From positions 1 to 64,000 of the forward strand of contig NZ_RSED01000003.1 in assembly GCF_003933735.1 (NCBI RefSeq): DNA of 64,000 nucleotides. Direction: 5' to 3'. Below, piece by piece: positions 59,212 to 64,000 of the stretch (position 1 is its first letter; every line of letters begins with the position of its first letter). A program made the position numbers and the translations under genes. This DNA comes from Aquabacterium soli. GTDB taxonomy: Bacteria > Pseudomonadota > Gammaproteobacteria > Burkholderiales > Burkholderiaceae_C. A model generated the notes under the pieces. That model made no database searches, had not been told where the DNA came from, and was given only the letters and a program-made list of their open reading frames with translations.

Positions 59212-59868
59212 ATGGCAGGCTTGTCATCCCCTGGCCAGATCGTGGCCATCGTGGGCGCCGAGAGCACAGGCAAGTCGACGCTGGTGCGTGAACTGATGCG
59301 TGTGCTGTCAGCCCGTGGTCTGTCGGTCACGGTGGTGACCGAGGCACTGCGGGACTTCTGCGACCTGCATGGCCGCACGCCGCGTGCCGATGAGCAGGCG
59401 GCCATCGCAGCGGAGCAGACCAGGCGCATTGCCGAGGCCGCCCAGTCCCATCGCCTGGTGTTGGCCGACACCACGGCCTTGATGATCGCGGTCTACAGTG
59501 AGCTGATCTTCCAGGACACCAGCCTGTATGCCCAGGCCGAACGTGATCACACGCAGGCGGCCATGACCTTGCTGACGGCCCTGGACCTGCCCTGGGTGCA
59601 GGATGGCCTGATCCGCGATGGCCCACAGGTGCGGCTGCCCGTCGACAACCTGGTGCGCCAATCCTTGCAGCGCATGGGTGTGCCCTATGCCGTGGTGGCC
59701 GGCGTGGGCGTGTCCCGGGTGCAGCGGGCGCTGGAGGCGGTGGAGCATCTGCTGGACGCGCCGGCCAGGCAGGCCAAAGCGGGGCAGGGTACACGCTGGC
59801 GGTGGTTTTGCGAAAACTGCGACGACGGTGAGTGCGAACAGCACTGGTTGCCACGGGCCGCGCCGTGA
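59212..59868 (+). CDS. NadR-like nicotinamide riboside kinase
   Basis: A 218-residue P-loop protein without the NMN adenylyltransferase or regulatory domains of full NadR. IVGAESTGKSTLVREL near residue 12 is Walker A, VTEALRDF near 42 and LADTTALMIAVYSELIF near 83 are the conserved kinase blocks. It should phosphorylate imported nicotinamide riboside to NMN, trapping it for NAD synthesis. A cysteine-rich tail (CENCDDGECEQHW) at the C-terminus may bind metal. It begins five bases after pnuC. Confidence 0.83.
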   Translation: MAGLSSPGQIVAIVGAESTGKSTLVRELMRVLSARGLSVTVVTEALRDFCDLHGRTPRADEQAAIAAEQTRRIAEAAQSHRLVLADTTALMIAVYSELIFQDTSLYAQAERDHTQAAMTLLTALDLPWVQDGLIRDGPQVRLPVDNLVRQSLQRMGVPYAVVAGVGVSRVQRALEAVEHLLDAPARQAKAGQGTRWRWFCENCDDGECEQHWLPRAAP

Positions 59869-60650
59869 GTGGGCCTGAGCAACTGCCGGTGCTGTGGCGC
59901 GACGATCGCCTAGTCGCTGTGCACAAGCCACCGGGCTGGCTCGTACACCGCACCGGCCTGGATGCCCACGAAACACGCTTCGTGGTGCAGACACTGCGTG
60001 ATCAGCTGGGCCAGCGTGTGCACCCGGTGCATCGCCTGGACAAGGGCACCTCAGGGGTGCTGCTGATGGCCCTGGATCCGGAGGCCGCACGCCTGGTGGC
60101 GCAGGCCTTCGAGGCGCGCCAGATGGACAAGGGCTACGTTGCCTTGGTGCGGGGCTGGGTGCCTGACGCGGTGCGCGTCGATCACCCGCTCAAGCCCGAT
60201 GACGCACCGGCCGATGCACCGGCCCAGCCCGCCGTGACGGACTTCCGTTGCCTGATGAGGCTGGAGCTGCCTGAGGCGGTGGACCCACGGCATGCGACCA
60301 CGCGGGTGTCGCTGGTGGAGGCGCGGCCGCTCACCGGCAGGCGTCACCAGATCCGCCGCCACCTCAAGCACCTGTCGCACCCAATCATCGGCGATGCCAC
60401 GCACGGCAAGGGGCCGCTCAACCGCTGGTGGGCCGAGCGGCTGGGCTTTCAGCGCCTGTGGCTGCATGCTTTCGAACTGGCCTTCACGCATCCCTTCAAT
60501 GGGGGTACCCTGCGGGTCGAGTCACCCTGGCAGGTCGATGCCCATTGGCAGCACCTGCTGCATACCTTGCACGCACACGAGGTGGCCGGGGTGGGCGGAT
60601 CTCACACCCCATGCATCGAATCACCGATAAGCGTGCCAAAGGCCTGCTAA
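59865..60650 (+). CDS. RluA-family tRNA/rRNA pseudouridine synthase
   Basis: A 261-residue enzyme. HRLDKGTSG near residue 47 holds the catalytic aspartate, and GRRHQIRRHLKHLSHPIIGD near 160 is the conserved C-terminal block of the TruC/RluC type. I chose GTG 59865 because it overlaps the kinase stop as GTGA and starts just before the conserved LPVLWRDDRLVAVHKP. The earlier GTG at 59832 lies inside the kinase gene. TruC (tRNA U65) is the best guess. It shares the operon but not the pathway. Confidence 0.85.
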   Translation: MSGPEQLPVLWRDDRLVAVHKPPGWLVHRTGLDAHETRFVVQTLRDQLGQRVHPVHRLDKGTSGVLLMALDPEAARLVAQAFEARQMDKGYVALVRGWVPDAVRVDHPLKPDDAPADAPAQPAVTDFRCLMRLELPEAVDPRHATTRVSLVEARPLTGRRHQIRRHLKHLSHPIIGDATHGKGPLNRWWAERLGFQRLWLHAFELAFTHPFNGGTLRVESPWQVDAHWQHLLHTLHAHEVAGVGGSHTPCIESPISVPKAC

Positions 60651-60735
60651 TCCTCGTTTCAGCCCATCAAGTCGCCGCCGATACTGAACGGTAAGCCGTC
60701 GACTGGTCTGACGGCACCTGAGGGTTTCGAGAACC

Positions 60736-63700
60736 ATGGCGTCGCTGATCACCAGTTTGTCCACCGCACAGATCGCTTCGCTGTCCGCGAAGTCGATCTC
60801 CATTTTGGGGACGGACGACTGGGCCGTGTTTTCCACGGCGCAGATCGCCGCCTTGTCGACCAGCCAGATCACATCGATCGGCACCACCGCGCTGCTGTCG
60901 CTCACACCAGCCCAGTTCGCGGCCTTCGAGACCGCCGACATCCGCCTGTTCAACAGCGTGCAGATCCAGGCGCTGGGCGCAACGCAACTGGCGGCGCTGA
61001 CCACCAGCCAGGTCAACGTGCTCACGAGCACGCAGGTCCGCGCGCTGACATCCACGCAGATCGCCTCGCTGGAGAGCGAAGAGCTGCGGGCGCTCAACAC
61101 CACCCAGGTGGCGGTGCTGAGCACCAGCCAGGTCGGTGCGCTGAGCACCGCGCAGATCGGGCAGATGGAAACGGCCGATGTACGGGCGATCAACACCACC
61201 TCTCTCAAGAGCCTGAGCACGGCCCAGATCGAGGCGCTTGCCACCACGCAGATCCAGGCGCTGAGCAGCGCCCAGGTCAAGGCCCTGGAGACCGTGCAGG
61301 TGCAGGCGCTCAAGACCGAGCAGGTGGCCTCGCTGGTCACCACCCAGGCGGCGGCACTCACCAGCACGCAGGTGGCGGCGCTGGCCAGTTCTCAGGTCAG
61401 CGCCTTGAGCACGGACAGTGTCGCCGCGCTGCAGACATCCGCCTTGCGCGGGCTGGGCACCGAGGGCGTGCAGGCTTTGAGCACCAGCGCCGTCGTGGCC
61501 TTGACCACCGCGCAGGCGGCCTCTTTGAGCAGCACACAGGTGTCGGGCCTGAGTTCGACACAGGCCGCTGCGCTGGAAACGGCCGATCTGCGCAGCGTCA
61601 GCAGCACGGCCTTGGGCGCCTTGGGCACCCAGCAGGTGGCCGCCCTGGGCAGCAGCCAGGTGGCGGCACTCACGACGGGGCAGGTCAAGGGCCTGGCCAC
61701 GGAGCAGGTGGCGGCGCTGGGCACGCAGGAAGTGGCCGCGCTGACCTCGCAGCAGGTGGCCACACTCAACAGCAACCAGGCCTCGGCCCTGGTCACCCAG
61801 CAGGTGGCCGCACTGGAGACACTCAACATCCGTTCGCTGGGCACCACCGCCCTGAAGGCCTTCAGCACCAGCCAGATCGAGGCCTTGAGCACAGCCCAGG
61901 TGGCTGCGCTCAACACGGCCCACATCCGGGCGTTGAGCACGGAGCAGATCCGAGCCCTGCAGACGCAGGACATCGCGGCACTGACGACCTCGCAGGTGGT
62001 CGCGCTGTCCAGCACGCAACTGGCCGCCTTCAGCACGGCTCAGATCGCCGCCTTCGAGACGGCGGATGTGGCCGCCTTGCAGACGGCCGCGTTGCGGGGT
62101 TGGGGCAGTGACGCCTTGCGTGCGCTGACCACGGCCGAAGTGGCGGCGTTGAGTACCGTGCAGGTGGCCTCGCTGACCAGCGCTCAGGCCTCGGGCCTGA
62201 GCACAACGCAGATCGCGGCGATGGAAACGGCCGATGTGCGCGCGCTCAGCACTGCGACACTGCGCGGCCTGAGCACGGCCCAGATCGAGGCGTTGACCTC
62301 GTCGCAGGTGGCGGCCATGGGCACGGTGCAGATCAAGGCTTTGACCACGGTCCAGGTGGCGGCCCTGAGTACCGAAGACATCGTCGCGTTGAGCACCTTG
62401 CAGGCCGCTTCGCTGGACAGCACACAGCTGAGCGCCTTGACCACGGCGCAGGTGGCGCAGTTGGAAACGGTCGATCTGCGTGCCCTCAACACCGCGGCCT
62501 TCCGTGGCCTGACAGCGGCCCAGATCGAGGCCTTGACCACCAGCCAGGTGGCCGCCTTGAGCACCGCGCACATCAAGGCCATGGGCACGGCCCAGATCGC
62601 GGCCATCGCCACGGATGACGTGATGGCGATGACGACGGCGCAGTTCGCTGCGCTGTCGAGCGTGCAGGTCAATGCCTTGACCTCGGCTCAGATCGCCGTG
62701 CTGGACGCGGCTGATTTCAATGCCATGGGCACGGCGGTGCTGCGCAGCCTGGGCACGGTGGCCATGGCGGCCCTGAGCACGGACCAGATCGTGGCCTTGA
62801 GCACGGCCCAGGCCGCCGCCCTGGGCAGCGACCAGTTGGCCGCCCTGAGCACGGCCCAGATCGCCGCCTTCGAGACACGCGATGTACAGGCCCTGTCCAG
62901 CGCTGCCCTCCGTGGCCTGAGCGTGGCGCAGCTCGACGCCTTGAGCAGCGAGCAGATCGCCGCGCTGAGCACGCGTCAGATCGTGGGACTGACCTCGACC
63001 CAGGTGGGTGGCTGGTCCACGGCCGATCTCAATGCCTTGAGCACCGTGCAAGCGGCGGCTTTGGGCAGCAGCCAGATCGCGGCACTGAGCATGCTGCAGA
63101 TCGCCAACCTGGAAACGGCGGATCTGGCAGCCTGGTCCACGGGCAGCCTGAAGGGCCTGAGCACCACCCAGATCGTGGCGCTGAGCACCGAACAGGTGGC
63201 AGCCCTGACCACCACCCAGTTGAAGGCGCTGGGCAGCACCCAACTGGCCGCGCTGAGCACAGCGGACATCGTCGCGCTCAGCACCGCCCAGGTGGCCGCC
63301 TTGTCTAGCACGCAGCTCAATGGCCTGAGCACCACCCAGATCTCGGCCATCGAGACAACGGACCTGGCCGCGCTGGGTACCACTGTCGTGCGGGCCCTGA
63401 GAACCGAGGCCATCCAGGCGTTGAATGATGCCCAGTTGGTGGCATTGACCACGGCGCAGGCCGCATCGCTCACCAGCAACCAGGTGATGGCCCTCGGCAC
63501 GGCGCAACTCACGGCACTGGAGACCGTGGATCTGCAGGCCCTGTCGACGGCCGCGGTTCGTGCGCTGAGCGTGGCCCAGATCGCGGCCCTCACACCGGAT
63601 CAGTTCAATGCCCTGACCACCCGCCAGATCGGCTCACTCAGCACCAGCCAGGTCCAGTCGCTCACCACCGACCAGGTGGTGGCCTTGAGCACCACCCAGT

Positions 63701-64000
63701 TCTCTGCGCTGTCCAGCACCCAGGTAGGGGCGCTCAGCTCGGCCCAGATCGCGGCCATCGAAACCGAAGACCTGCGTGTATTGAGCACCGGTACCGTGCG
63801 CGCACTCAGCGTGGAGCAGATCGATGCGCTCAGTTCGGCCCAGTTGTCATCGCTGACCACGGCTCAGATCAATGCGTTCACCTCAGCGCAACTGGCCGCG
63901 CTGGCCGCCGATGACATTGCTGCACTGACCACCGCGCAGTTCGCTGGTCTGTCGTCCACCCAGGTGGCCGCTCTGAGCGAAGACCAGGTGGTGGCCATCG
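60736..64000 (+). CDS. Giant octapeptide-repeat protein, 3' end outside window
   Basis: The frame from ATG 60736 has no stop codon to the end of the window: 1088 codons, all of which fall into 136 eight-residue repeats. Consensus: [ST][ST]x[QDE][VIL]x[AG]L (for example STAQIAAL). There is no signal peptide: an in-frame TGA at 60709-60711 leaves only CTG 60718 as a possible earlier start. Ala, Thr, Ser, Leu and Gln dominate; there is no Cys or Pro-rich or aromatic-rich domain. The repeats are grouped into units of 7 or 10 octads (see the repeat entry). I do not recognise the family. Size and repetitiveness would fit a large secreted adhesin exported by a type I system through its unseen C-terminus, but that is inference. 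The weak SD-like TGAGGG is 11 bases upstream. Confidence 0.85.
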   Translation, partial: MASLITSLSTAQIASLSAKSISILGTDDWAVFSTAQIAALSTSQITSIGTTALLSLTPAQFAAFETADIRLFNSVQIQALGATQLAALTTSQVNVLTSTQVRALTSTQIASLESEELRALNTTQVAVLSTSQVGALSTAQIGQMETADVRAINTTSLKSLSTAQIEALATTQIQALSSAQVKALETVQVQALKTEQVASLVTTQAAALTSTQVAALASSQVSALSTDSVAALQTSALRGLGTEGVQALSTSAVVALTTAQAASLSSTQVSGLSSTQAAALETADLRSVSSTALGALGTQQVAALGSSQVAALTTGQVKGLATEQVAALGTQEVAALTSQQVATLNSNQASALVTQQVAALETLNIRSLGTTALKAFSTSQIEALSTAQVAALNTAHIRALSTEQIRALQTQDIAALTTSQVVALSSTQLAAFSTAQIAAFETADVAALQTAALRGWGSDALRALTTAEVAALSTVQVASLTSAQASGLSTTQIAAMETADVRALSTATLRGLSTAQIEALTSSQVAAMGTVQIKALTTVQVAALSTEDIVALSTLQAASLDSTQLSALTTAQVAQLETVDLRALNTAAFRGLTAAQIEALTTSQVAALSTAHIKAMGTAQIAAIATDDVMAMTTAQFAALSSVQVNALTSAQIAVLDAADFNAMGTAVLRSLGTVAMAALSTDQIVALSTAQAAALGSDQLAALSTAQIAAFETRDVQALSSAALRGLSVAQLDALSSEQIAALSTRQIVGLTSTQVGGWSTADLNALSTVQAAALGSSQIAALSMLQIANLETADLAAWSTGSLKGLSTTQIVALSTEQVAALTTTQLKALGSTQLAALSTADIVALSTAQVAALSSTQLNGLSTTQISAIETTDLAALGTTVVRALRTEAIQALNDAQLVALTTAQAASLTSNQVMALGTAQLTALETVDLQALSTAAVRALSVAQIAALTPDQFNALTTRQIGSLSTSQVQSLTTDQVVALSTTQFSALSSTQVGALSSAQIAAIETEDLRVLSTGTVRALSVEQIDALSSAQLSSLTTAQINAFTSAQLAALAADDIAALTTAQFAGLSSTQVAALSEDQVVAI
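60760..64000 (+). repeat. Hierarchical coding repeat: 24-bp octads in 168- and 240-bp units, 648-bp super-period
   Basis: Unit starts, marked by an octad of the form E[TA]x[DN][LVI] or its equivalent, fall at 60760, 60928, 61168, 61408, 61576, 61816, 62056, 62224, 62464, 62704, 62872, 63112, 63352, 63520, 63760 and 64000. The spacing is 168, 240, 240 bp, repeated five times without exception. The second octad of each unit is usually [ST]xx[LVF][RK]x[LW] and lacks Gln. The third octad of each 168-bp unit also lacks Gln. In 240-bp units the seventh octad carries an acidic residue at the Gln position. DNA copies are diverged, so this is conserved at protein level and not a recent amplification. 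Confidence 0.93.

Follow-up and report, generated by a model that had tools for sequence, protein, structure and literature searches.

What kind of protein is encoded by a reading frame that consists of eight-residue repeats without interruption, and how might it reach the place where it works? The question is raised by the last gene of the window, by which we mean the whole 64,000-nucleotide stretch of Aquabacterium soli DNA analysed here (contig NZ_RSED01000003.1, positions 1 to 64,000). An ATG at position 60736 opens a plus-strand frame (octad-repeat gene, 60736..64000) that, as an earlier note on this DNA had described, stays open to the end of the window, its first 1,088 codons (60736-63999) specifying 136 octads. 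The reading that we favour, at a probability of roughly 60%, is that the complete protein is a rod of octads with an end like that of FrpC, that it likely receives O-linked glycans in the cytoplasm from a TPR-GT41 glycosyltransferase, and that it likely leaves the cell through a type I secretion system (T1SS).

When the following sequence is taken for the 3' end, as the earlier note had proposed, the frame proves to continue on the same contig (C41 of the organism's own genome, G000) to a stop codon ending at 67047, giving a protein of 2,103 residues, 213 kDa and pI 4.2 that contains no cysteine. From Met1 to about residue 1856 it is made of 232 octads in a single phase, with three prolines among them, and in 229 of these octads a hydrophobic residue occupies both position 5 and position 8, where composition predicts about 14% per octad. 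The motif that had been read from the window, [ST][ST]x[QDE][VIL]x[AG]L, has an exact match in 33 of the first 136 octads and in 41 overall; it stands as a consensus and falls as a strict rule. The absence of inserted or deleted residues is likewise true of this protein, but among the 115 octad open reading frames (ORFs) examined a single phase is kept in 84 and broken in 31. The distance from Met to the C-terminal domain equals whole octads plus three residues in 21 of 26 complete rows (one genome appearing twice). Opposite the repeat lies a 946-codon antisense open frame (window positions 60667-63507, minus strand), which we judge to be an artefact of octad codon use.

The earlier note saw no recognised domain and knew of no named family. 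Pfam PF20080, the 'ALTTAQ repeat', matches the window part of the protein in 42 stretches (E 2.3e-273; 882 bits against a cut-off of 26.4), so the octad unit had already been catalogued, and a C-terminal domain lies beyond 64000. A match to a well-described repeat family, which the earlier note would have counted as a refutation, is nonetheless present in name only: the family is catalogued, neither 'ALTTAQ' nor 'PF20080' being found in any paper of the literature searched. PF20080 and the window protein have an identical repeat unit, but PF20080 names the repeat only, and its other listed members bear other ends (two-partner secretion (TPS), G8, calpain and more). With the first 480 residues as query, a database search that scored just the 7,991 candidates with the most words in common returned 278 proteins; among the 120 matches listed, octads are joined to RTX or PF26745 ends and to TPS, G8, calpain and other domains. 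In P0136, P0209, P0236 and others, octads stand beside calpain, G8, TPS or DUF4347 domains, and the repeat is therefore not bound to one export route. Of 200 genomes sampled from the phylum, the own genome among them, 21 have PF20080, as do 16 of a set of 41 relatives, namely 16 of the 25 from the same genus (own genome included) and none of the 16 from other families. Caulobacter vibrioides, which also has a GT41 match, was the sole positive among 14 control genomes.

How would such a chain fold? We propose a long, screw-like helical solenoid rod at the cell surface, in which each octad would form one short helix, the core would be packed with the hydrophobic residues of positions 5 and 8, and position 2 would point outward. 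By general helix rules, Ser or Thr at position 1 would cap the octad helix, with Gln or Asp at position 4 completing the cap. An AlphaFold2 model of 200 octad residues of a relative, computed with 50 aligned relatives, has about one short helix per octad, with block means of 89-97 in predicted local distance difference test (pLDDT). The octad series of the window protein peaks at 3.384 octads, with a power of 7.82 against a maximum of 3.43 in 1,000 octad shuffles, and averaging over 63 named relatives gives a peak at 3.39 octads; judged by this sequence periodicity, one turn likely takes about 3.4 octads (27 residues). When the fitted period is cut in five, octads with Glu at position 1 cluster on one face (18 of 23), those with Arg or Lys at position 6 on the next (24 of 40), the net charges of the five faces being -38, -38, +24, +1 and -33. 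The suggestion that so strict a phase reflects selection for a regular fold is borne out by the modelled octads and by a copy in a second genome (G022): both copies have 2,103 residues, align without gaps and share 81% of residues, and the ratio of nonsynonymous to synonymous substitutions (dN/dS) is about 0.19. HeliScrew4 (PDB 9zem), an octad protein of 120 residues with mostly Pro at position 2, resembles the window protein in sequence (phmmer E 1.3e-14, profile E 3.9e-26); it was absent from the fold-search results (entries to 2026-04-08), and the literature search returned no paper on it beyond the molecule's name.

After the octads end near residue 1856, a domain begins near residue 1860 that is homologous, over the module and by both sequence and fold comparison, to the self-processing module of FrpC from Neisseria meningitidis (PDB 6sjw, 6sjx). 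Strict EF-hand-like loops lie at residues 1943 and 1965, and a third, of 13 residues, is seen in the alignment; Pfam EF-hand scores are below the cut-off, and calcium binding by the loops is putative. The scissile Asp-Pro that precedes the module in FrpC is Ser-Pro in the window protein, and among 61 relatives the place of the Asp is taken by Thr in 39 and Ser in 22. Loss of this site, with the EF-hand-like loops kept, argues that the domain is likely a calcium-triggered folding cap and not a cutter. Its position also differs, near the chain end and after the octads, whereas the FrpC module precedes RTX repeats. On a strict definition (GGxGxDxxx nonapeptide repeats) the octad protein is not an RTX member: GGxGxD occurs nowhere in its 2,103 residues, and PF00353 has no match in residues 1-1088 or in the last 282. 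The chain ends in LI in 44 of 60 relatives, a conserved C-terminus and a candidate secretion signal.

The guess of the earlier note, type I secretion with an RTX-type end, is supported, but secretion genes do not lie directly downstream, where the next gene encodes an Hsp33 homologue (Pfam PF01430). The own genome holds a further octad gene, split between the ends of contigs C24 and C47; to judge by the neighbouring genes, the parts likely belong to one locus. The matching locus is uninterrupted in the two-contig genome G013 (an open frame of 4,992 codons; L060 10939-19998 and L061 2-5914) and in G023 (3,388 codons). After the octads, C47 encodes a TPR-GT41 protein (L155 2595-5885), a glycosyltransferase with a methyltransferase domain and a GDP-mannose 4,6-dehydratase, and then a TolC-family protein, HlyD and an ABC exporter, a linked export set that is present at this locus and not at the window copy. 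The ABC and HlyD proteins of G013 and G023 score above the NCBIfam thresholds for TIGR03375 (LssB type) and TIGR01843. Export of the window copy is likely, and would proceed in trans through the T1SS encoded elsewhere in the genome. Systems of the LssB/LapB type handle giant surface proteins, those of the LapA kind being an example; the octad proteins resemble these in their giant repetitive chain, in a C-terminal end that is presumably uncleaved, and in the TIGR03375 exporter and HlyD linked to octads in G013 and G023. Unlike LapA-kind proteins, the octad protein lacks GGxGxD and, because its octads begin at residue 1, leaves no space for an N-terminal retention module. Contig C96 of the own genome encodes another ABC exporter of this kind (124273-126354, minus strand), which is 42% identical to the octad-linked one.

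Within the genus, 16 octad-positive and 9 octad-negative genomes can be compared. At 60% identity or more, the linked exporter is present in 15 of the 16 and in 1 of the 9 (the best identity elsewhere being 47%), and the linked GT41 in 13 of the 16 (in G010 as two pieces) and in none of the 9; where both lie on one contig, as in 14 genomes, exporter and GT41 are within 7.2 kb of each other in all 14. The Fisher p values, 7e-5 for the exporter and 1e-4 for GT41, are lower bounds, since the genomes are related to one another and the 60% threshold was chosen once the matches were known. A scan of genome contigs gave a best 79 loci, 74 of them with an octad ORF; among these 79, whose flanks are often truncated, a GT41 match occurs in 15, at least one T1SS component in 20, and either in 28. 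In a set of 114 ORFs that follow octad genes, counted up to 700 residues in length, methyltransferases (up to five), GDP-mannose dehydratase (four), GT41, UDP-galactopyranose mutase and other glycosyltransferases (two each) recur, which lends weak support to linked glycosylation. For the window itself, the 25 of 53 families listed for 32 window ORFs include no glycosyltransferase.

Glycosylation is plausible from the linkage, the co-occurrence and the residues at position 2: the TPR-GT41 enzyme would O-glycosylate the octad protein in the cytoplasm before export, and the Ser or Thr found at position 2 in 183 of the 232 octads would be the candidate acceptors. The median proportion of Ser/Thr at this position is 98% in 10 GT41-linked proteins and 93% in 64 other named proteins, as against 17% in 29 TPS, 15% in 17 G8 and 22% in 9 calpain octad proteins, Pro or Ala being common at position 2 in PF20080 members outside the T1SS type; the low values in these classes imply that the fold seemingly does not demand Ser/Thr there. 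Position 1 carries Ser/Thr in about 60% of octads in every class, which fits a helix cap. The C-terminal stretch of the TPR-GT41 protein is weakly like NodZ/FUT8 fucosyltransferases (NodZ below cut-off), and with the adjoining GDP-mannose 4,6-dehydratase gene this makes a deoxyhexose glycan conceivable. FlmG of Caulobacter, which glycosylates flagellin, is a precedent for a soluble TPR glycosyltransferase acting on a surface protein ahead of its export (PMC7591256). Substrate and export route differ, and the term GT41 is not used in that paper.

Several observations weigh against the reading that we favour. Smaller sets of octad proteins peak at other periods (TPS, three proteins, 2.46; mixed, six proteins, 5.43; other RTX, four proteins, 2.43, with 3.39 ranking fourth), and a 17-octad duplication unit also yields such spectral lines, adding harmonics. 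T1SS and GT41 queries gave no match in the window or in the 20-kb locus around its octad gene (L009); G013's TolC-type match stays under the NCBIfam threshold, and that of the own genome is a match to Pfam. G008 has octads, yet its best exporter and GT41 matches reach just 40% and 37%; G015, 53% complete, has the exporter with octads not found. G001 and G017 carry a GT41 immediately next to the exporter, but at just 43% identity, and the one in G017 has a single internal stop. GT41 of any kind occurs in 34 of the 41 genomes, octad-negative ones included, and is therefore in general no marker. Ser/Thr at position 2 is 49% (range 11-81%) in the 19 RTX-type octad proteins among the matches listed and reaches 67% in one calpain protein, and shared ancestry could have caused the pattern.

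One rival is a T1SS-exported octad rod without glycosylation. The GT41 and sugar genes would then be devoted to a neighbouring surface polysaccharide or to a different protein, with Thr at position 2 a habit of the lineage. This account would accommodate the GDP-mannose dehydratase, methyltransferases and other sugar families of these loci. It would also accommodate the 93% of Ser/Thr in the 64 named proteins that have no close GT41 in the flank examined; because these named proteins are related to each other, a single event may underlie the Thr pattern. We nevertheless consider this account unlikely, given that the specific GT41 clade occurs in 13 of the 16 octad-positive and none of the 9 octad-negative genomes of the genus, that it lies close to the exporter where both share a contig, and that the position-1 control is flat across classes. 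A rod whose ordered Thr/Ser and charged faces bind ice, mineral oxides or polysaccharide would draw on the regular Ser/Thr at two positions and on faces charged differently in step with the period, and some T1SS adhesins do bind ice; no ligand-binding domain was matched in the protein parts scanned with Pfam, nor does direct evidence point to any ligand, and we hold this to be very improbable. That the window gene is a decaying spare copy, away from the exporter and neither expressed nor exported, is hardly credible: it is indeed a second copy, found at this site in two of the genomes read, G000 and G022, between genes for an RNA pseudouridine synthase (59832..60650, plus strand; Pfam PF00849) and Hsp33 with matching ORF clusters (L009 and L068), but in both it is full length without stops and under the constraint given above.

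With the glycosylated, exported rod retained as the preferred reading, we infer a role for the octad protein at the cell surface, perhaps in attachment or as part of a matrix. The larger finding is a linked system that combines the octad rod and its self-processing module, which lacks the cleavage site, with an LssB-type exporter and a GT41 enzyme. It might amount to a Gram-negative counterpart of mucins, with hundreds of octads glycosylated at their position-2 Ser/Thr by TPR-GT41 in the cytoplasm, exported by the LssB-type system and wound, at about 3.4 octads per turn, into a rod from a cleavage-dead module that folds in extracellular calcium, a view that we advance tentatively and at less than even odds. 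The ALTTAQ repeat occurs in many giant bacterial proteins, and the linkage of octad gene, TPR-GT41 and LssB-type exporter makes it a testable system. If the reading is true, cytoplasmic glycosylation would be joined to type I secretion, and a self-processing module would have been retained for folding after losing its cleavage site.
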